DNA of 64,000 nucleotides, from positions 496,001 through 560,000 of the forward strand of contig NZ_CP019893.1 in NCBI RefSeq assembly GCF_002156705.1, given 5' to 3'. This stretch comes from Natrarchaeobaculum aegyptiacum. Lineage in GTDB: Archaea; Halobacteriota; Halobacteria; Halobacteriales; Natrialbaceae. Of this stretch, positions 36,843 to 48,036 are shown piece after piece. The notes under the pieces are model-generated. The model did no database searches and was not told the origin of the DNA. It saw only the letters and a list, made by a program, of their open reading frames with translations. Made by a program: the position numbers and the translations under genes. Within the stretch, counting starts at the first letter, position 1; each line of letters starts with the position of its first letter.

Positions 36843-38885
36843 CTAGAGCGTGTCGACGTCGAGGATCATCACGACCTCACCCTCGCCGAGGACGGAGGCT
36901 CCGCTGATCCCCGGCGCGCCACTGAGGACGCCCTCGAACGGCTTGATGACGACCTCTTCCTGACCGACGACGTCCGTACACCGGAGACAGACCTGCCTGA
37001 CGTCGTCTTTGATCCGGACGACCATGTCGTCTGCTGCGGGCTCGGTGTCTGGCACGTCGAGACGGTCGGCCAGCGAGAGCATCGGGTAGACCTTGCCGTC
37101 GTGGGTGACCGTCTGGCGGCCCTCGACCCGCTCGACGGTGACGTCCTCGAGCTCGGAGATTTCGTCGATGTTCTTGATCGGGACGCCGTACTTCTCGTCG
37201 CCGGCGGTGACGAACAGGACGCGAACGATGGCGACGCTCACCGGGAGCATCAGGGTGACGCTCGTGCCCGCGTTGGGTTCGCTCTCGACGTTGATCGAGC
37301 CGTCGACGCCGCGGACGACCTGGTTGACGACGTCCATCCCGACGCCGCGGCCGCTGACCTCCGTCACTTCCTCGGTCGTCGAGAATCCGGGGTGGAAGAT
37401 CAGGTCGTACACCTCCGAATCGTCGAGGACGCGCCCTTCCTCCTCGGTGATGACGCCCTGATCGATCGCCTTCTGGCGGATCTCGTCGACGTCGAGGCCG
37501 CGACCGTCGTCCTGGACGGTCACGGACACGCGGTCGCGTTCGCGTTCGCCGATGAGCCTGATCGTCCCCTCGCGGGGCTTGCCCTTCTCCTCGCGTTCTT
37601 CCGGGGGCTCGATGCCGTGGTCGACCGCGTTCCGGATCAGGTGCATCAGGGGATCGCCCAGTTCGTTCAGGATCGAGCGATCCATCTCGATGTCGACGCC
37701 CTCCATCCGGAAGTCGATCTCCTTACCCTGCTTGCGCGAGATGTCCCTGACGACCCGCGGAAAGTTTCCGACGATCTTCTTCAGGGGCACCAGTCGGATC
37801 TCCAGCACCGTATCCTGCAGGCTGGCCGTGATCTTGCCGTGTTCCTCGAGTTCGTCTTCGGCCTCGACGAGGTCGTTTTCCTCGATGATCTTCCGGAGTT
37901 TGATCCGGCTGGTGACCATCTCCTCGACCTGATTGTACAGCTGGTCGACTTGCTCGACGTCGACGCGGATCGACTCGACCTCCTGGCTCGCCCGGGTCAT
38001 CGCGGAGTCGGAACCGCCGCCGTCGTCGCTGGTTGCGTCCTCGTCGCTCCCGTCGTCCTCGTCTTCGGCTGCTGCGGCCACGACGTCGTCGGTGACGAGG
38101 CTGGCGCTCGCGTCTTCCAGGTACCGGTTTTCCCGGAAGAAACCGGCGACGTCGTCGGCGGTTGCCCCCTCGTCGGTGACGACGTAGACGTCGAACGCCC
38201 CGTCGAACTCGCCGGCCTCGATCGCCTCGTTATCCGGGTCCGTTCGAAGCAAATCGTACTCGTCGGTCGTCGAATCGAGGACGAACATCGCGTCGACGTG
38301 CTCCGAGCCGGAGGCTTCGAACACGAGCGTGGCCTGGACGACCTCGCGGTCTCCGAGTTCCGCGTCCACGTCGTCGGCGTCGACCTCGAGCGTCTCTGTG
38401 GCGTCCTCGAGGAGTTCTGCGGGCGCAATGTCGGGGCCAGCGGACTCGGTTTCGGCCGCTGGGCTCCCGTCTGCGTCGCCAGCATCGCCGTCGGCTGCAT
38501 CCTCGCCGGCCTCGATCGACGACCGGATCTCTTCGATCGTCGCGCTCGGGTCGGTCTCGGTTTCACCGTCGTCGGAAATTTCTCTCACCATCTGGTCGAG
38601 CAGGTCGACGCCGCTAAAGATGAGGTCCATCCGCTCGCCGGTCACCGAGAGTTCCCCGTCGCGGATGCAATCGAGGAGGTCCTCGACGGCGTGGGCCATG
38701 TTGCTCGCGTCCGTGTAACCCATGACACCGAAGTTCCCCTTCAGGTTGTGGGCGACCCGAAACACCGTCTCGATCGCCTCGGAGTTTTCGGGATCGTCGG
38801 CGTCCTCGAGTTCCAGTAGCGCGTTGTTTAGGCTCTGGATGTCCTCCTGACTCTCCTGGACGAAGGTGCTGGTCGGATCGCTCAT
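36843..38885 (-). CDS. cheA: chemotaxis histidine kinase CheA
   Basis: The 680-residue kinase couples transducers to CheY and CheB phosphorylation. It has the P1 phosphotransfer domain with H46 (VAHNLKGNFG), an acidic P2-like linker region, dimerisation P3 (residues ~330-390), the ATPase P4 (LIRNAVDHGIEPPEER; VQDDGRGLD; GRGVGMDVV) and a C-terminal CheW-like P5 domain. Its ATG overlaps the cheB stop (ATGA). An upstream in-frame GTG at 38894 is less likely. No cheR is in the window. Confidence 0.96.
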   Translation of the reverse strand: MSDPTSTFVQESQEDIQSLNNALLELEDADDPENSEAIETVFRVAHNLKGNFGVMGYTDASNMAHAVEDLLDCIRDGELSVTGERMDLIFSGVDLLDQMVREISDDGETETDPSATIEEIRSSIEAGEDAADGDAGDADGSPAAETESAGPDIAPAELLEDATETLEVDADDVDAELGDREVVQATLVFEASGSEHVDAMFVLDSTTDEYDLLRTDPDNEAIEAGEFDGAFDVYVVTDEGATADDVAGFFRENRYLEDASASLVTDDVVAAAAEDEDDGSDEDATSDDGGGSDSAMTRASQEVESIRVDVEQVDQLYNQVEEMVTSRIKLRKIIEENDLVEAEDELEEHGKITASLQDTVLEIRLVPLKKIVGNFPRVVRDISRKQGKEIDFRMEGVDIEMDRSILNELGDPLMHLIRNAVDHGIEPPEEREEKGKPREGTIRLIGERERDRVSVTVQDDGRGLDVDEIRQKAIDQGVITEEEGRVLDDSEVYDLIFHPGFSTTEEVTEVSGRGVGMDVVNQVVRGVDGSINVESEPNAGTSVTLMLPVSVAIVRVLFVTAGDEKYGVPIKNIDEISELEDVTVERVEGRQTVTHDGKVYPMLSLADRLDVPDTEPAADDMVVRIKDDVRQVCLRCTDVVGQEEVVIKPFEGVLSGAPGISGASVLGEGEVVMILDVDTL

Positions 38886-39943
38886 CCGGACCACCCCCGG
38901 AACGCGTTCGTGATCCCTTCGGCGAGTCGGTCTTTGGGCAAGACCATGTCGAGGTCGACCTGTTCGGCGGCGACCTTCGGCATCCCGTAGACGCGCGAGG
39001 TCGCTTCGTCCTGCGCGATGGCCTTCCCACCGGCTGCTTTGATCGCCGCGAGGCCGTCGGCCCCGTCGGCCCCCATGCCGGTCATGACGACGCCGAGGAG
39101 GTTACCGTCGACGCGTTCGGCCGCTGTCTCCATCGTGACGTCGATCGCGGGTTTCACGTTGTGTCGCTTCGGGCCGTCGTCGTGGTCGACGACGACCGAA
39201 CCGTTCCGGAAACCGGTAACCGCGAGGTGGGTGCCGCCTTTCGCGAGCACGGCCTCACCGGGACCGATCCGTTCACGGCCCGACGATTCTCGAAGTTCGT
39301 AATCTGTACGGTCGTTGAGACGCGATGCAAATCGTCCCGTGTAATGGTCTGCCATGTGTTGTACCACCAGAATTCGCAACCCCGCTCGTTTGGGGAGCTC
39401 CGCCAGGACTCGTTCGACGACCCGCGGGCCGCCGGTCGAAGCGCCGATGATCACCGTCGGATCGTTCGGGAACTCGTCGTCGACGTCGATCGTCGGCGTC
39501 TGGGCGGTGCGAGTGCGTCGCCCCGTCGGTTCGGATTCCTCTCTCGAGACGTCCGCCCCGGCGACCGCGCAAACGCGCTCGACGATTTCGTCCTGTTGAC
39601 TCCAGATGTCGACGGAGTTGTCTCCGGAGGGCTTGGCGATGAAGTCGACGGCCCCCTTCTCGAGGGCCTCGAAGGTCGCGTCGGCGTTCCGGGTCGTGTG
39701 GGAGCTGATGACGAGCATCGGCGTTGGATTCTCTGCCATCACCTCCTCGATGACCTCGTGACCGGTCTTGCGAGGCATCTGGATGTCGATCGTCGCGACG
39801 TCCGGTTCGAGCCGGTCGATCGCCTCGACTGCCTCGACACCGTCTTTCGCTCGGCCGACGACCTCGATACCCCCGTCTTCGAGGATCCTGCCGAGCGTTT
39901 CGCGCATGACCGCCGAGTCGTCCGCGATGACTGCTCGAACCAT
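38882..39943 (-). CDS. cheB: protein-glutamate methylesterase CheB
   Basis: The 353-residue protein has a receiver domain with phospho-acceptor D53 (TIDIQMPRKTG) and a methylesterase domain with the catalytic serine region IGASTGGPRVVERVL, histidine VQHMADHYTGRF and MTGMGADGADG. It removes methyl groups from transducers for adaptation. It is coupled to cheA. Its own ATG overlaps the stop of a 39-codon upstream ORF (TGATG), which starts at the predicted transcription start. Confidence 0.96.
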   Translation of the reverse strand: MVRAVIADDSAVMRETLGRILEDGGIEVVGRAKDGVEAVEAIDRLEPDVATIDIQMPRKTGHEVIEEVMAENPTPMLVISSHTTRNADATFEALEKGAVDFIAKPSGDNSVDIWSQQDEIVERVCAVAGADVSREESEPTGRRTRTAQTPTIDVDDEFPNDPTVIIGASTGGPRVVERVLAELPKRAGLRILVVQHMADHYTGRFASRLNDRTDYELRESSGRERIGPGEAVLAKGGTHLAVTGFRNGSVVVDHDDGPKRHNVKPAIDVTMETAAERVDGNLLGVVMTGMGADGADGLAAIKAAGGKAIAQDEATSRVYGMPKVAAEQVDLDMVLPKDRLAEGITNAFRGWSG

Positions 39944-40245: not shown

Positions 40246-41043
40246 ATGGCGGGATCTGCACGGCTCTGTGTGACGAATCAAAAGGGAGGCGTCGGGAAGA
40301 CGACCGTGGCGATCAACCTCGCCGGAGGCCTGAACGAACGCGGTCACGACGTGCTCTTCGTCGACCTTGACCCACAGGGTAACGCGACGGAAGGGCTCGG
40401 CCTGCTCGAGGCCTACGACGCGGAACCGCCGACGCTTCTCGACGCGCTCGTAGAGCCGTCGGCCGTCTCCCCGTCGGAACTCGTCTACGACCACCCCGAG
40501 ATGGACGTCGTCCCGAGTAACATCGACATGAACGCCGCCGAGTCAGCGCTGGGCGGCGAATCGGACGGCGAGACCAGACTCGAGCCGCTGCTCGAGAGCC
40601 TGGAGGAAGACGGTGACTACGACGTCGTCGTGGTCGACTGTCCGCCCTACCTCGGGCTCGTCACCGACAACGCGTTGCTCGCGACCGAGAACGTGGTCGT
40701 TCCGGCGCTGGCCGAACCGACGAGCAAGCGCTCGCTCGAACTCCTGTTCGACTACGTCGGCGCACTCGAGATGGATCACGACGTGCAGATCGAACCCCGC
40801 GTCCTCGTCGCCAACCGCGTCGAGAACACCAAGGAAGCTGATCACATGATCGACTGGTTCGAAGAGGCTCTGCCTGACGTCCCGCTGTATCGCATTCGAA
40901 AGCGCGTCGCGCTCCAGCGGGCGTTCGCCGACGGCCGGTCGATCTTCGGCGTCGAGGAGGAGACCGACATGCAGTCGGTCTTCCTCGAGATAGCCGCGAC
41001 GATCGAAGAGACGGTCTTCGAGGCCACGGAGGTGCCAGCGTGA
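40246..41043 (+). CDS. ParA/MinD-family ATPase in the chemotaxis cluster
   Basis: The 265-residue protein has the full deviant Walker A motif KGGVGKTT, FVDLDPQGNATEGLG (ParA-type) and VVVDCPPYLGLVTDNAL. ParA-like ATPases form dynamic gradients that position cargo. Its last codons overlap the GTG start of the following CheW-domain gene (GTGA), so the pair is translationally coupled. By analogy with bacterial ParC/ParP, it may place chemosensory arrays in the cell. A TTATG box 30 bases upstream of the ATG supports a leaderless start. Confidence 0.9.
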   Translation: MAGSARLCVTNQKGGVGKTTVAINLAGGLNERGHDVLFVDLDPQGNATEGLGLLEAYDAEPPTLLDALVEPSAVSPSELVYDHPEMDVVPSNIDMNAAESALGGESDGETRLEPLLESLEEDGDYDVVVVDCPPYLGLVTDNALLATENVVVPALAEPTSKRSLELLFDYVGALEMDHDVQIEPRVLVANRVENTKEADHMIDWFEEALPDVPLYRIRKRVALQRAFADGRSIFGVEEETDMQSVFLEIAATIEETVFEATEVPA

Positions 41044-42182
41044 CCGACGATCGCGCACGCCGAATCCGGAACCTGCGAAAGCGGACGGGCGGTCGCGGTG
41101 ACGACGACGCAGCCTCCGGGGACGACGACGGAACGGACGGACCTGACGCTGGCGACGAGGAAACGGCCGAGTCGCCGGGCGACGAGCCCGTGAAGACCGA
41201 CGGAAACGGCGAGGACGTGGCTGGCGACGAGTCAGATGACGGTGGCGACGGGACCGACGACGAGTCGTCGAGACCTGAGGACACCGACGATTCGTCGACG
41301 TCCGTTCCCGAAGACGACGTCGAACTCGAGTACTCGAGCGACGCTGCGGCGGACGCCGACTCCGGCGGAGACTCGGACGGTTCAGTCGCGACTGAGCACG
41401 ACGTGGACCACGCCGACGGGGCCGAGGGGAGCGAGGCGTCGGCAGGCACCGGGTCAGCCGGGACGACAGTCGCCGCGGCAGCCGAGACGGCGGCAGTGGC
41501 GAGTCCGGGTGCCAGTACGTCCGTCGGCGACGGACTGAAACCGATGGTCGAGACGGCCGACGCTTCCGACTCGCCGTTCGGTGGCGCGATCGCCAGCGAG
41601 GACGTCCTTTCTGACTTCGTCGACGACGTCGGCACCGGCGAAACGGACGCCATCGGTGGCGGGGCCAGCGGCCAAAGCGCGTCCGTCTTCGACCGCGACG
41701 ACAGCCTCGTCGCCACGACCCACGAGGACGACACGATCCAGATGCTCGAGTTCTACCTGAACGACGATCGCTACGCGATCGAAATCGAGCGGATCAGCGC
41801 CATCGTCGAGATGAAGCGGATCACGCGGTTCCCACGTGGACCCGAGGCGATCGACGGCGTCACTGACCTTCGCGGTGAGATCACCGCCGTCCTCGATCCG
41901 ACGGCGATGCTCGACGTCGACCGCAGCGAACTCTCCGACGATCACTACATCGTCGTCCTGGAGCGCGACGACGACAAGCAGAAACTCGGCATTCGCGTCA
42001 CCGACGTCCTGCAGGCAGTCACCTACCGGGAGTCACAGATCGACGAGACGGCCAGCGTAATGGACGCCGCCGGCGATCACGCCCACGAGTTCGTAAACGG
42101 CATCGTCAAGAAAACGACCGACGGGCGGACCGAACTCGTCACGTGGCTCGACGTCGACTCGATCATCGAGAACACGGAATAG
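41040..42182 (+). CDS. CheW-domain protein with long acidic N-terminal region
   Basis: The 380-residue protein starts at a GTG overlapping the ParA stop. A short basic head (RARRIRNLRKRTGG) is followed by about 200 residues of Asp/Gly/Ser/Ala-rich, probably disordered sequence. A complete CheW/SH3-like domain runs from about residue 230 (IQMLEFYLNDDRYAIEIERI, then ITRFPRGPEAIDGVTDLRGE). It differs from the plain CheW at 42211. The tail-plus-CheW layout and coupling to ParA suggest an adaptor that ties arrays to the ParA system, in the manner of ParP; this is inference. Confidence 0.88.
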   Translation: MTDDRARRIRNLRKRTGGRGDDDAASGDDDGTDGPDAGDEETAESPGDEPVKTDGNGEDVAGDESDDGGDGTDDESSRPEDTDDSSTSVPEDDVELEYSSDAAADADSGGDSDGSVATEHDVDHADGAEGSEASAGTGSAGTTVAAAAETAAVASPGASTSVGDGLKPMVETADASDSPFGGAIASEDVLSDFVDDVGTGETDAIGGGASGQSASVFDRDDSLVATTHEDDTIQMLEFYLNDDRYAIEIERISAIVEMKRITRFPRGPEAIDGVTDLRGEITAVLDPTAMLDVDRSELSDDHYIVVLERDDDKQKLGIRVTDVLQAVTYRESQIDETASVMDAAGDHAHEFVNGIVKKTTDGRTELVTWLDVDSIIENTE

Positions 42183-42210: not shown

Positions 42211-42651
42211 ATGGCAACTACGAACCCGAACCAGACCGCGACAGCCAGCACGCACGTTCTCGAGTTCGATCTCGGGGACAACCGCTACTGCGTCGACATC
42301 GGCTACATCGCAGAGATCGTCAACACCGACGAACTGACGCCGATCCCGAACACACCACCGCACATCGAGGGCGTGATGGACCTCCGCGGAGAGACGACGA
42401 AGATCGTCAACCTCCGCAAGATCTTCGACGATCAGACCGACCGGGAGGAACTCGGTGACCGCATCGTCGTCTTCAAACGCCGGCGCGACTCGAGCGAGCG
42501 GATCGGCTGGCTCGCCGACGAGGTCCACCAGGTCCGCGAACTGCAGACCGACCTCGTCGACACGTCCGTCGAGGGGTCCCAGATCGCAGGGATCGTGCGC
42601 CGGGACGACCGGTTCGTCCTCTGGATCGATCCGACAGCGGTCCGCGTCTAG
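42211..42651 (+). CDS. cheW: chemotaxis adaptor CheW
   Basis: This 146-residue single-domain CheW (HVLEFDLGDNRYCVDIGYIA; ITPIP-like TPIPNTPPHIEGVMDLRGET; IDPTAVRV end) links transducers to CheA. It follows the longer CheW-domain gene by 28 bases and is likely in the same operon. Confidence 0.95.
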   Translation: MATTNPNQTATASTHVLEFDLGDNRYCVDIGYIAEIVNTDELTPIPNTPPHIEGVMDLRGETTKIVNLRKIFDDQTDREELGDRIVVFKRRRDSSERIGWLADEVHQVRELQTDLVDTSVEGSQIAGIVRRDDRFVLWIDPTAVRV

Positions 42652-42838: not shown

Positions 42839-44413
42839 ATGAGTCGCGGTTCCCCGACGGCCAAAATTACTGATACGAATCGACAACAGGTAGACGGCGA
42901 GACGCTCACCGACGAACTGGGCATCGATCGGCGAGAGATCGACTGGCGAAAGGAGTTCGCCCGGTTCGACGAGTCAGACGCAGCCCGACTCGAGTCGATG
43001 TCGCCCCTCTTCGACGACATCGCCGAGGACCTCGTCGACGAGTTCTACGATCACCTCGAGTCGACGGCGGAATCGGCTGCGATCATCGAGTCCTCCTCGA
43101 AGCAAGTCAACCAGCTCAAACGGACCCAGCACCAGTACCTGACCGACCTCGGCAACGGCGAGTACGGCCAGTCGTACTTCGACCAGCGAGCACGCATCGG
43201 AAAGATCCACGACATGCTCGATCTAGGGCCGAAATTCTATCTCGGGGCCTACACGCTCTACTACGAGGGGATTCTTGACGCGGTCTGTGAGGACGCGATG
43301 GACCAGCTGGCCGAGCGGGCGATCGACCACGGACAGGAGTCGGCCGACGGGGACGTCGGAGACGCTGCTGCTGAATCCGGAACCGCGGGCGAGGAGATGG
43401 TCTCGCTGGAGGACGCTCGAGCGGTCGTCGACGAGGGAATGGCTGACGTTCTCGCCGTGTTGAAACTGCTCTCGCTCGACCAGCAGATCGCGATGGACAC
43501 CTACATCCACTCCTACGCGGACGTCGAGGCCGAACTCGAGCGTCGGACCGAAGTCGCGGAGAACGTGACCGACTCCATCGGCGAGGTTCGCGACCGCTCG
43601 CTGGACGTTGAGGAGCGCTCGAGCGAGATCAGCGCGCTCGCGAGCGAGCAGTCCGACTCGATGACGGAGGTCGCATCGGAGGTGTCGAACCTGTCGGCGA
43701 CGGTCGAGGAGATCGCTTCCAACGCCGAGACGGTCAGCGACACGAGCGAACGCGCCGAGTCGATCGCCAACGAGACGACGGAGACGGCGGAGACGGCGAT
43801 CGAGAAGATGGAGAGCGTCGAGGCGGCCGCCAACGACGTCACCGAGGACGTCGAGGACCTCCGGGAGGGCGTCGGGCAGATCGAAGACGTCGTCGACGTG
43901 ATCAACGACATCGCCGACCAGACGAACCTGCTCGCGCTGAACGCCTCGATCGAGGCCGCGACGGCGGGTGAAGCCGGGGCTGGCTTCGCGGTCGTCGCCG
44001 ACGAGGTGAAATCACTCGCCGAGGAGTCCCAGGAGGAGGCCGCGACGATCGAGCGCCTCGTCGACGACATCCGGGAGGACACACGCGAGACCGTTGAGAG
44101 CCTCGAGGAAGCCAACGAGGAGATATCGGAGGGCGTCGAGCGCGTCGAGGAGACCGTCGAGAACCTCTCGCGGATCGAGGGGACGATCGCCGACGCCAAC
44201 GCGGGGATCCAGGAGGTGGCGATCGCGACCGACGATCAGGCCGCCAGCACCGAAGAGGTCGCCAGCGTGACCGACGACGCGATGAGCAAGGCCCAGACGG
44301 TCGCCGAGGACGTCGCCAAGATCGCCCGGGCGAACGAGGAACTTCGGGAGGCGATCACCGAGATCGAATCCGAGGTCACGCGCCTGACCGACCGTGCCGA
44401 CGACGCCCAGTGA
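42839..44413 (+). CDS. hemAT: HemAT-type globin-coupled transducer
   Basis: The 524-residue soluble aerotaxis transducer has an N-terminal heme-globin domain (about 15-200, proximal H124 in [10 protein letters not shown]) and a C-terminal signalling coiled coil with the conserved hairpin [20 protein letters not shown] and the following [20 protein letters not shown]. It senses O2 and signals through CheW to CheA. No membrane segments. A TATTTACA box centred 28 bases upstream of the ATG supports a leaderless start. Its globin is similar to that of the kinase at 30322. Confidence 0.95.
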
Positions 44414-44686
44414 CGACAAGCCCACGGCCCCCGATACGTCACCGGGCCATCGTCACCTCGCCGACTCGAGTGCTGTTCTGGAGATACGTTATTCGTCGTG
44501 AACTGACCGACGGGTAGTGATGGAGCACGCTCGAGTGACGCCACGCCGGAACGATCGGGATTTTGTACTCCGGTGTCGGGGATATAATGAGTATTGGTAA
44601 AGAGATATATACGTTCAGTTCACACTGTTGGATAACCAGTAGCGGTGTGCGTCTCGCCCCACACGGCACCGTCTCGAGGGGAGTGT

Positions 44687-45568
44687 ATGACCGAGGATAT
44701 CGTCGCCGACTTCACGAGCAGGTTCTTCCTGAACAGTGGCGACGACGGCGATGGGGCACCGACGAACGGGCGCGTCGTAATGACGCGGAAACGGCTCGTC
44801 CTCGCGACGACCGACGACAAGACGACCATCGCGCTCTCGAACGTCGTCGACGTCAACGTTGGCTCGGTTCCCGCTCACGTCAAACAGTTCTTCGACGATA
44901 CGGTGACGATCGGTTTCAAAGGGCCAACCGGGATCCAGAGTGCCGTCATCGAGAGCGAGGGGGACACTCTGGAGACGTTCGTCGCGATCCTGTTCCGGTG
45001 CCTGCTGAACGGGCGAACGGTGGCCGTCAAACACCCGGCACGGGTCGGTGGGCGGGTCAAGAACACGTCCGTTCGGAAGGGCAAACTCCGGATCAAGAAG
45101 CGCTCGATCGAGGTGACGACGGCCGGTTCGGACGATCCCGTGTCGATCGACGTCGAGAGCGTGATGAACATCGGCCGGTCGAACAGACTCGGTGACGACG
45201 ATCGCGTCACTCTCGTCGTCAAGTGGATCGACGACGGTGGCCTCACGTCGACGACCCTGATCGCCCCGGCGAAGAGTCAATACGTGAATCTGCTCGCCCG
45301 GTTCCTCCGCCTCGAGTTCGACGACTTGCGGGAGGAAGTCGAGGACGTCGAGCTATCGGACCCAGAAAAGCGGGTGCTCGTCAGCGTTCACGCGACCGGT
45401 GGCGACATCGACTTCACGAACCTCCTCGACGGCGATCCGGCCTACGTCACCAACGTCCTCAACTCGGTGAAGAACAAGGACCTCATCGTCGAGAACGGCG
45501 ACGGCATCTCGCTGACCGCGAAGGGACGAATCATCGTGAGCCAGCGCATCGAAGACGTCAACGTTTGA
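44687..45568 (+). CDS. cheF: CheF, chemotaxis-archaellum adaptor (DUF439)
   Basis: This 293-residue archaeal protein couples CheY to the archaellum motor. The N-terminal MTEDIVADFTSRFFLNSGDD and GRVVMTRKRLVLATTDDKTT fit the DUF439/CheF pattern of paired PH-like beta domains. The C-terminus is a winged-helix-like segment (DPEKRVLVSVHATGGDIDFT and LTAKGRIIVSQRIEDVNV). A TATA-like GATATATAC lies near 44607, leaving about 50 bases of leader before this ATG; an in-frame GTG at 44645 is the alternative. Confidence 0.92.
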   Translation: MTEDIVADFTSRFFLNSGDDGDGAPTNGRVVMTRKRLVLATTDDKTTIALSNVVDVNVGSVPAHVKQFFDDTVTIGFKGPTGIQSAVIESEGDTLETFVAILFRCLLNGRTVAVKHPARVGGRVKNTSVRKGKLRIKKRSIEVTTAGSDDPVSIDVESVMNIGRSNRLGDDDRVTLVVKWIDDGGLTSTTLIAPAKSQYVNLLARFLRLEFDDLREEVEDVELSDPEKRVLVSVHATGGDIDFTNLLDGDPAYVTNVLNSVKNKDLIVENGDGISLTAKGRIIVSQRIEDVNV

Positions 45569-45715
45569 TACGATTCCTATCACGCTGTAGAGAACGTTTC
45601 CAGAACGGCGACGAATTTCGACGAACGCAGTCTCGAGTGGCCGTCCACGATCGACCTTTCGACTGTCACCTTTTTGGTCAACATCATTAAGTCATCCCGG
45701 TGTATTCACCCGCCT

Positions 45716-46072
45716 ATGGATGTGCTGATCACAGACGATTCTGGGTTTATGCGTGATCTCCTCCGGGAAATTCTCGAGGAAGAACACACCGTCGTCGGCG
45801 AGGCTGAAAACGGCGTGGAAGCGGTCGAACTGTACCAGGAGAAACAGCCCGACATCGTCTTCATGGATATCGTGATGCCGATCAAAGACGGTATCGAGGC
45901 GACCGGCGAGATCACCGACATGGATCCGGACGCGACGGTCGTGATGTGTACGAGCGTCGAGCAGGCCGAGCAGATGAAAGAGTCGATCAAAGCCGGCGCC
46001 GAGGGATACATCACGAAGCCGTTCCAGAAGGAGAGTGTCCTAGAAGAGATAAACAGCATCGCAGCCGACTGA
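45716..46072 (+). CDS. cheY: chemotaxis response regulator CheY
   Basis: The 118-residue receiver has the acidic pocket (DD at 7-8), phospho-acceptor D51 (VFMDIVMP), T79 (VMCTSVE) and K101 (YITKPF). It relays CheA phosphate through CheF to the archaellum. A CATTAAGTC box centred 28 bases upstream of the ATG fixes the start at 45716, excluding 14 upstream codons. It is followed eight bases later by cheC. Confidence 0.97.
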   Translation: MDVLITDDSGFMRDLLREILEEEHTVVGEAENGVEAVELYQEKQPDIVFMDIVMPIKDGIEATGEITDMDPDATVVMCTSVEQAEQMKESIKAGAEGYITKPFQKESVLEEINSIAAD

Positions 46073-46080
46073 GCCTTCCC

Positions 46081-47289
46081 ATGGAAATCGATATCCGCGA
46101 GCTCGAGACCTACCAGACGCTCGCCCACGACGGTGCACAGTCGGCCGCCCAGTCACTCTCACAGCTTACCGGGATCAGTACGCACGTCCAGGTCACCGAC
46201 GTGTCCCTGATGTCTCCATCGAGTCTGAGCTACGAGTTCATCGGCGACGAGTTCGCCGGCGTCAACATCGATCTGACCGGCGAGATCGCCGGCGAGGTCG
46301 TCCTCGCGTTCGACGAGCAGGGACGACGGGCGATCACCGAGACGCTCGTCCCGGCCGACGACCCCGAGAAGCAAAAGAGTTCGATCAAGGAGGTCGGCAA
46401 CATCATGACCAGCGGCTTCGTCGACGGCTGGGCGAACTACCTCGAGGCCAAGATCAAGAGTTCGCCACCGACCTACATCGAAGGGACGGGAAGCGACATC
46501 CTCCCGACGTCCGCGAGCGAGGGCGACACCCACCTGTTCGTCTTCCGCAGTCGCGTCGAAGCCTCCAAGGACTCGAGCACCGATCCGATCGACTTCCGGA
46601 TCCTCCTCGTCCCGGATTCGGCATCACTCGAGCGGTCGCTCCAGCCAAAGACGGAAAACATCGTCTCGCTGGAAAAGCTCGAGGTATTCAACGAGATGAC
46701 CAAGGAAGGTGCCGAGAAGTCGGCCCAGAACATCTCCTCGATGACAGGGATCGAAACCACGGTCAACGTGAGTCGGCTGAGCCTGGTGCCGATCGAGGAC
46801 ATCCCCAACCGGGTCGGGAGCAAGCGGTTCGTCGGCACCGTCATGGAGTTCCGAGGGAAACTCGGCGGCTTCCTCGTGATCCTGTTCGACCAGCCCTCGG
46901 GACGTGCCGTCGTGGACTCGCTCGTGCCGATGGAGACCGACGGCGACTGGGGCGAGATGGAACAGGGTGCCCTGCGAGAACTCGGCAACATCATGACCAG
47001 CGGCTTCGTCGACGGCTGGGCGAACGTTCTCAACGCCGAGATCAAACACTCGCCCCCGGAGTTCGTCGCTGACACTGGTGCCTCGGTCCTGCGACCGATC
47101 ACGGCCCAGATCGCCGAGACCGACGACCACGCGTTCATGCTGGACTCGAACATCCAGACCGACTCCGACCAGGTGTTCACCTGCCAGATGCTCGCGCTCC
47201 CACGCCGGGACGAACTCGAGGACGCCCTCGACGACCTGCTGCTCGAGAACGCAGAGAACACGGAAGTCAACCCAGAAGACCTCTTCTGA
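46081..47289 (+). CDS. cheC: two-domain CheC-family protein
   Basis: The 402-residue protein consists of two CheC-like units (about 1-195 and 200-400). Each contains one phosphatase ExxN signature: KEVGNIMTSGFVDGWANYL and RELGNIMTSGFVDGWANVL, nearly identical copies. CheC proteins dephosphorylate CheY-P and bind CheD. Each unit keeps only the second ExxN in a recognisable form, so the active sites differ from Thermotoga CheC, which has two per domain. It is in an operon with cheY. No cheD is seen in the window. Confidence 0.93.
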   Translation: MEIDIRELETYQTLAHDGAQSAAQSLSQLTGISTHVQVTDVSLMSPSSLSYEFIGDEFAGVNIDLTGEIAGEVVLAFDEQGRRAITETLVPADDPEKQKSSIKEVGNIMTSGFVDGWANYLEAKIKSSPPTYIEGTGSDILPTSASEGDTHLFVFRSRVEASKDSSTDPIDFRILLVPDSASLERSLQPKTENIVSLEKLEVFNEMTKEGAEKSAQNISSMTGIETTVNVSRLSLVPIEDIPNRVGSKRFVGTVMEFRGKLGGFLVILFDQPSGRAVVDSLVPMETDGDWGEMEQGALRELGNIMTSGFVDGWANVLNAEIKHSPPEFVADTGASVLRPITAQIAETDDHAFMLDSNIQTDSDQVFTCQMLALPRRDELEDALDDLLLENAENTEVNPEDLF

Positions 47290-47409: not shown

Positions 47410-48036
47410 ATGATCGCCATCGCCGGCTCCAAAGGGAGGTGTGGAACCCCCACGGTGACCCTCGGCATCGCCGAGGCACTCGGCCGCACAGACACGCCCG
47501 TCGTGGCCATCGACGCCGACAGACAGCTGCCGAACCTCCACGTCCTGACCGACTGCGACCGCTCGCCGACGGCCGCCGACCGCGTGGACGGTGCGGACGT
47601 GACGACTGTCGCCCAGCGCCATCCCCGCGACGCTCACGTCGGGGTCGTCCCCGCGCCGCGCCCCGGGGAAGCGTTCGACTTCGGCGCGCTCCCAGCGGCC
47701 ACACCCGATGGCATCCAGGTGCTGGTCGACTGCCCGTCCGGTGCCGGACCAGACGTCGTCGACCCGCTCGAGTCCGCACGCGGGATGATCGCCGTCACGA
47801 CGCCCACGGAACGCGGCCTCGAGGCCGCCGAGACGACCCTCGAGATGGCCCGACGGCTACGGGTTCCCGTCTACGGCGTCGTCTGTAACCGGTGTACGGA
47901 TCCGCCCGGGAGAGTCACACGATGGGACGGCGTGGCGGTTCTCGGCTGCGTGCCCGAACGGACCTCGACGCTCGAAAGCGAGGACGTCGCGGCGGCGTTC
48001 GACGACGCCTCGAGCGGGAGTTCGGACGGGTCGTGA
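47410..48036 (+). CDS. MinD/ParA-like protein with degenerate Walker A
   Basis: The 208-residue protein aligns with MinD-like ATPases (IAIAGSKGRCGTPTVTLGIA; VAIDADRQLPNLHVL; VLVDCPSGAGPDVVDPL), but the Walker A motif KGGxGKT is replaced by KGRCGTPT. The nucleotide-binding lysine is missing, so ATP hydrolysis is unlikely. Its stop overlaps the GTG start of a second MinD-like half gene. Lying downstream of cheC, it may be a pseudo-enzyme partner of a real MinD/ParA. Confidence 0.75.
   Translation: MIAIAGSKGRCGTPTVTLGIAEALGRTDTPVVAIDADRQLPNLHVLTDCDRSPTAADRVDGADVTTVAQRHPRDAHVGVVPAPRPGEAFDFGALPAATPDGIQVLVDCPSGAGPDVVDPLESARGMIAVTTPTERGLEAAETTLEMARRLRVPVYGVVCNRCTDPPGRVTRWDGVAVLGCVPERTSTLESEDVAAAFDDASSGSSDGS

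Follow-up and report, generated by a model that had tools for sequence, protein, structure and literature searches.

Organization of the locus

The window, i.e., the entire stretch of 64,000 nucleotides of Natrarchaeobaculum aegyptiacum DNA that was analyzed, harbors a chemotaxis cluster in which a ParA-type ATPase is encoded next to a CheW protein with a long N-terminal extension. On the minus strand, cheA of system I (36843-38894; Pfam Hpt, H-kinase_dim, HATPase_c, and CheW) and cheB (38882-39943; CheB_methylest, E 3.7e-54) can be found, the latter divergent from parA. On the plus strand, parA (40246-41043) and the tailed cheW (41040-42182) are followed by a plain cheW (42211-42651; PF01584, 7.3e-27), a gene for a HemAT-like MCP with a protoglobin domain (42839-44413; MCPsignal and Protoglobin), cheF (44645-45568; CheF-arch, 1.8e-64), cheY (45674-46072; Response_reg, 8.2e-30), and a two-domain cheC (45946-47289; CheC, 1.8e-20, two stretches). 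Coordinates of cheF and cheC are those of the longest ORF, the true start of cheF possibly being downstream and that of cheC probably downstream of the cheY stop. A preliminary description had placed the pair within a che cluster that also holds a plain cheW, and this is borne out. Beside cheC, a MinD-like ORF (47410-48036, plus strand) displays a degenerate Walker A, SKGRCGTPT; 18 of 40 other relatives encode a homologue, and among the 11 that were read some carry GCGKTT and some GCGTST.

The ATPase (265 aa; Pfam AAA_31, E 1.6e-40) is of the small form without an N-terminal HTH, and its Walker A, KGGVGKTT, corresponds to residues 13-20. An alignment of 23 sequences shows no variation at K13, K18, D40, and D131, among which are the signature lysine, the catalytic lysine, and the aspartate of Walker B. 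Its AlphaFold model (pLDDT 90.6) finds its best Foldseek matches in Soj, ParA, and McdA. Regarding a MinD identity, the protein scores far below the NCBIfam cut-offs of both the archaeal TIGR01969 (61.8 vs 201.75 bits) and the bacterial family (39.8 vs 212.9). The short form and a kinship with plasmid ParAs both fit the small (type Ib) plasmid partition ParAs; in type Ib systems the partner is a centromere-binding protein, and the sole Pfam domain of the window partner is CheW. The residues R218, K219, R220, and R225 are conserved in the same 23 sequences and form a basic stretch that presumably lies close to where Soj-like ParAs contact DNA. R224 of Caulobacter ParA, which is linked to DNA binding, presumably corresponds to an alanine in the window ParA. 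With a conserved basic stretch, yet one contact residue apparently an alanine, DNA binding is plausible; the contact region of Soj-like ParAs is described in the available part of PMC7229837.

Within GTGA, the stop codon of parA (TGA, 41041-41043) overlaps the GTG at 41040 with which the next ORF starts, so that the claim of a complete ParA-type ATPase whose stop overlaps the start of a CheW-domain ORF is confirmed. This tailed CheW (380 aa, plus strand) can be divided into three parts. Residues 1-18 (41040-41093, MTDDRARRIRNLRKRTGG), with seven K/R and two D/E, constitute a basic peptide, proposed here as a ParA contact and ATPase-activating segment; the basic MTDDRARRIRNLRKR precedes an acidic, fast-evolving linker of 210 residues (residues 19-228, 41094-41723) with 60 D/E and five K/R. 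The CheW domain (residues 234-378, 41739-42173; PF01584, E 1.8e-23, 83.1 bits vs a curated cut-off of 23.5) is presumably the array-docking module, and its best PDB match is Thermotoga CheW (2.5e-10). The acidic tail announced earlier is therefore a real acidic stretch, but it is N-terminal to the CheW domain, not C-terminal, and the basic head, the most informative feature of the protein, had been passed over.

Conservation of the pair and of its parts

Among 125 genomes of the family, the ParA is found at 66-100% identity in 32, further matches being at 55% or less; where the next gene of such a lower match was read, no CheW partner was present. A search for the tailed CheW at E 1e-30 or better returns the identical list of 32 genomes. 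In 31 of the 32, the two genes adjoin each other on a single contig; in the remaining one (G001) the ParA and CheW matches are split between contigs, each near a contig end. A lack of co-occurrence had been named beforehand as grounds for rejecting the proposal; the two genes do co-occur, their lists of 32 family genomes (of 125) being identical, and, for a second type described below, a CheW accompanies 44 of 48 ParA matches in the order. ParA and the tailed CheW are thus a conserved unit and not an accident. CheA of the window type at 69% identity or more is, among the 125, restricted to the 32 pair-bearing genomes, and at 53-63% it occurs in six additional genomes; some CheA match can be found in 116 of the 125, and a second, longer CheA is common in the family.

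The four-base overlap is present in 31 of 32 named-genome pairs and in 65 of 72 pairs from further genomes. Within the partner, conservation is distributed unevenly: mean pairwise identity is 0.77 for the peptide, 0.77 for the CheW domain, and 0.25 for the linker in Natrialbaceae-type partners (18 sequences), and 0.60, 0.63, and 0.17, respectively, in Haloarcula-type partners (51 sequences). The acidic region was considered as the ParA contact and rejected on account of this fast evolution in both groups; it is unlikely to play that role, for which the basic peptide at the N-terminus is a stronger candidate.

When the ParA alignment was scanned against 84,980 species genomes, 80 loci were kept. 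The next gene encodes a CheW in 32 of the 80, namely seven loci of Natrialbaceae and 25 mostly of Haloarculaceae, and the species with a pair include members of Natrialba, Natronorubrum, Halobiforma, and Haloarcula. In the seven Natrialbaceae loci, CheB adjoins the pair in all and CheA in six; in the other 25, no CheA, CheB, or CheY was found within the flank examined (up to 6 kb). In a sample of 293 genomes from across the order, the Haloarcula-type ParA has 48 matches in 46, with a CheW partner next to it in 44 and without one in four. Twelve genomes with this second kind of pair were searched with the CheW family, and 10 show a separate frame taken to be a CheA from its length and its CheW domain; no such frame was found in the other two, the MAGs G048 and G051.

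A third kind of pair, in genus g8 (five genomes; L224-L227 and L229), keeps the ParA-CheW order with a divergent ParA (about 180-190 bits vs 400 or more), which in G010 reads KGGTGKTFT. Its partner has another conserved N-terminus, about DPDDxFEDQLSDVGSRTREKxS, from which the peptide motif is absent. Since the g8 CheW lies near the Natrialbaceae type in the CheW-domain tree though the ParA is divergent, ParA may have been replaced there. At L228 (G022:C98), neither ParA nor the basic peptide is present in a che cluster that encodes a CheA (63%) and a relative of the tailed CheW of g8; this locus represents a natural loss and could serve as a control.

A peptide shared with the partners of plasmid ParAs

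The nearest ParAs without CheW, by identity and in the ParA tree, are haloarchaeal plasmid ParAs, and the subfamily of the window ParA can be found on 32 PLSDB plasmid records at 45.9-60.7% identity. Where a ParA of this subfamily has no CheW beside it, a small protein follows that displays a like peptide (e.g., MSDRASRLRERRN and MSDESRADRLRRRRR), a charged linker, and a different C-terminal domain. In the PLSDB plasmids the peptide is present in 7 of 7 annotated partners that were read; in an eighth record, pNRC200, no peptide-bearing partner was found. A strict form of the motif, R[AS]xR[ILVM][RKG] within the first 45 residues, occurs in 81 of 86 distinct N-termini of ParA-linked CheWs (shuffle mean 0.19), the five misses belonging to one genus, and in 18 of 28 distinct N-termini of non-CheW partners (shuffle mean 0.07), of which 10 miss it; because the motif was written after the sequences had been seen, the shuffles control for composition only. 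These 132 partner proteins come from L068-L112, L129, and L178-L266, the window and loci L008-L037 not being included; L105 (at a contig end), L263 (no partner found), and L228 (no ParA) were set aside before counting. As a control, 65 of 107 distinct CheW domains were taken from CheW ORFs without ParA, and in none of the 65 is the strict motif present upstream of the domain.

The ParA subfamily is thus otherwise located on haloarchaeal plasmids, and the partner in the window keeps the peptide of the plasmid partners, with CheW replacing their C-terminal domain. That original domain is small and helical (model pLDDT 85.6). A ribbon-helix-helix identity, suspected by eye, was rejected, Foldseek giving no match at E <1; the best VIA Z is 3.5, no Pfam family exceeds its cut-off, and the best PDB sequence match is at E 0.71. 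With no match by fold, family, or PDB sequence, its role as a DNA binder therefore stays putative.

The shared peptide also bears on what the tailed CheW might do in the array. It could act as an additional coupling protein that alters the output of the array rather than its place, with ParA governing its incorporation, as might be expected from the two CheWs per cluster and from CheW2 of Hbt. salinarum, which, in the accessible text of PMC3579733, binds receptors and not CheA. However, the peptide is common to plasmid partners that have no CheW domain, and two genomes (G056 and G058) have such a ParA yet no CheW gene at all; a tuning of the signal is accordingly a decidedly improbable function.

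Separate recruitment of CheW domains

Natrialbaceae-type and Haloarcula-type CheWs stand on opposite sides of a starred branch of the CheW-domain tree, and a single clade is rejected (AU p 0.0026). The Natrialbaceae type clusters with CheWs that are solitary elsewhere (95/99), and 24 CheW-domain rows, including the ParA-linked ones, are split from 11 CheA-P5 rows (100/100). For ParA, the tree does not reject the grouping of every CheW-linked ParA in one clade (p 0.067); removal of L104 turns this into a weak rejection (p 0.022), and no rejection results if the clade may also include L031, a non-CheW locus (p 0.78). In all AU tests, the groups had been named once similarities were visible. CheW has thus been attached to ParA at least twice, be it to one ParA lineage or to two. 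As to the sampling of these trees, all of which were built without ParC or ParP rows, L126, L128, and L130-L132 were left out of the ParA tree by choice, L108, L020, and L023 were missed by the Walker pattern, and L133-L147 were not taken; the re-test of the ParA clade dropped L018, L019, L025, L033, L034, L105, and L112, and the CheW tree skipped 13 loci of distant or second-system CheWs.

The plasmid origin of the ParA and the repeated attachment of CheW allow two further explanations to be weighed. The ParA could be a remnant of plasmid partition that happens to lie beside cheW without joint function, its relatives being plasmid genes. Against this stand the perfect co-occurrence in 125 genomes, the conserved overlap, the repeated separate pairing, and the persistence of the pair both inside and outside che clusters; the explanation is strongly disfavored and retains only a nominal chance. 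Alternatively, cargo positioning could be reversed, with the pair moving or holding DNA by means of arrays that serve as fixed anchors. A ParA of plasmid origin and the location of the Haloarcula-group genes outside the che cluster would be in line with this, but the CheW-type partner retains no other recognised domain, which makes DNA segregation by way of arrays highly unlikely.

Comparison with known ParA-based positioning systems

In vibrios, ParC and ParP place chemosensory arrays, and the preliminary description had proposed the archaeal pair as their possible counterpart. According to the available portions of PMC5706961, ParP consists of an N-terminal ParC-binding part, a linker, and a C-terminal array domain (AIF), a clade apart that is nearer to CheA-P5 than to CheW. 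Similarly, the archaeal pair combines a ParA-like ATPase with an adjacent or overlapping partner that has a candidate N-terminal contact region, a long linker that looks disordered, and a C-terminal SH3-like array domain; the ATPase is beside its partner in a chemotaxis operon in the window and in the seven Natrialbaceae loci, but not in the 25 other named pair loci. Unlike in ParP, the linker is acidic and not proline-rich, the array domain groups with true CheW and not with P5 (100/100, in a tree without a ParP row), the ParA is nearest to haloarchaeal plasmid ParAs, and the pair also occurs outside che clusters. Of the proposed counterpart, the conserved pair and the ParP-like layout hold, while shared descent is not supported, given the CheW-type domain and the kinship with plasmid ParAs. 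The resemblance to ParC/ParP looks convergent rather than orthologous.

Another ParC is that of Halothiobacillus neapolitanus, for which the accessible text of PMC10241942 lists CheW as the partner, the neighboring gene overlapping it; the likeness of a ParA with a CheW partner to the archaeal pair is one of description, not of sequence comparison. A ParA with a CheW partner is thus already known from bacteria. In Rhodobacter sphaeroides, the orphan ParA PpfA partitions arrays over the nucleoid together with TlpT (PMC5706961 and PMC10241942, in the parts available). TlpT contacts its ParA via the N-terminus, a contact that is only proposed for the archaeal pair, and, unlike the archaeal partner, which is a CheW only, it is a chemoreceptor. 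The pair, whose array domain is a true CheW, may be regarded as an archaeal variant of ParA-based array positioning that would work in the manner of ParC/ParP and PpfA/TlpT and that is apparently convergent with them.

Among haloarchaeal systems, the plasmid ParAs with their small partners, e.g., on pHS4 of Hbt. salinarum and pHG4 of Haloferax gibbonsii, belong to the same subfamily and share the overlap (mostly of four bases), the peptide, and the charged linker; in contrast, the C-terminal domain of their partners is small and helical without a Pfam match, and not CheW. In Haloferax volcanii, MinD2 and MinD4, also ATPases of the ParA/MinD superfamily, are needed for polar CheW foci, but they are of the MinD branch and, in the available text of PMC11588486, no CheW partner gene is described for them.

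The comparison raises the possibility of a polar tether, in which a landmark would hold ParA at the pole and the tailed CheW would anchor the arrays there, with no travel over the nucleoid. The ParP-like layout of the partner (PMC5706961, in part), the polar arrays of H. volcanii (PMC6509185, in part), and the dependence of its CheW foci on both MinDs (PMC11588486, in part) argue for such a tether; the plasmid ParAs as nearest relatives, the Soj/McdA-like model, and an array domain that is CheW-like and not P5-like argue against it. Overall, a tether at the pole is the chief rival to partition over the nucleoid, though it seems rather unlikely.

Proposed mechanism and significance

Based on these comparisons of sequences, the pair is likely to be a cargo-positioning system captured from plasmid partition, in which the tailed CheW would be part of the arrays and ParA would partition them over the nucleoid. 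Partition over the nucleoid is preferred to polar tethering because the ParA is closer to Soj, McdA, and plasmid ParA than to MinD. The CheW domain would dock the tailed protein into receptor arrays, and each array would therefore display many flexible basic peptides, with the acidic linker as a spacer suited to high salt. ATP-bound ParA dimers would sit on the nucleoid; binding of the basic peptides would lead to ATP hydrolysis and release, and the array would track the resulting ParA gradient, such that arrays could be spread, kept apart, or passed to daughter cells. For such a contact there are precedents in the accessible parts of two papers: basic disordered N-termini of partners contact ParA/MinD (A/D) ATPases (PMC10241942), and the N-terminal peptide of ParB, together with DNA, stimulates ParA (PMC12462528). 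As MinD2 and MinD4 position the arrays in H. volcanii (PMC11588486, in part), ParA is dispensable in some haloarchaea.

We also lean towards the view that haloarchaeal plasmid ParAs use one partner peptide code, that this code was transplanted at least twice, onto CheWs of two different lineages, and that a swap of the partner's C-terminal cargo domain alone converted the motor from partitioning DNA to positioning arrays. If true, competition for ParA between arrays and plasmids could arise, or each could be partitioned by the ParA of the other, since the same peptide code is retained on plasmids of related cells. In many salt-loving archaea, ParA-linked CheWs carry the basic tag of plasmid partners, which suggests that a plasmid-type DNA-segregation motor has been recruited repeatedly for the placement of sensory arrays.

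Regarding what was known before, only MinD2 and MinD4 of one species are implicated in the placement of archaeal arrays in the literature consulted (PMC11588486, in its available part), and the available text of the Natrialba magadii genome paper reports two CheWs in the che/fla locus without mention of a ParA. In open-licence papers, neither the archaeal pair nor its plasmid kinship nor the shared peptide was found. The pair thus offers a two-gene candidate for placing or inheriting archaeal arrays, with a mapped candidate contact peptide. A single ParA subfamily moreover provides a natural series of cargo swaps, and therefore the idea that ParA systems evolve through replacement of the cargo domain while the contact peptide stays fixed is directly testable.

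Related ParAs in other contexts

Plasmid-type partners at four loci (L082, L075, L078, and L110) match the viral families phrog_29165 and phrog_26668 of unknown function (E to 1.5e-20), and archaeal viruses therefore probably also carry this partition system. Directly after gvpC, gvpN, and gvpO, pNRC200 of Hbt. salinarum carries a ParA of the same wide family (L274:1492-2256); might it place gas vesicles? A haloarchaeal-type ParA with a peptide-bearing partner can be found on a contig labelled Candidatus Bipolaricaulota (L109:5893-6952), owing to either transfer or misbinning. Finally, on a contig of the Phycisphaerae (L143:5875-12256), a ParA encoded by a 563-aa ORF is near CheB-, CheY-, and CheC-like ORFs.
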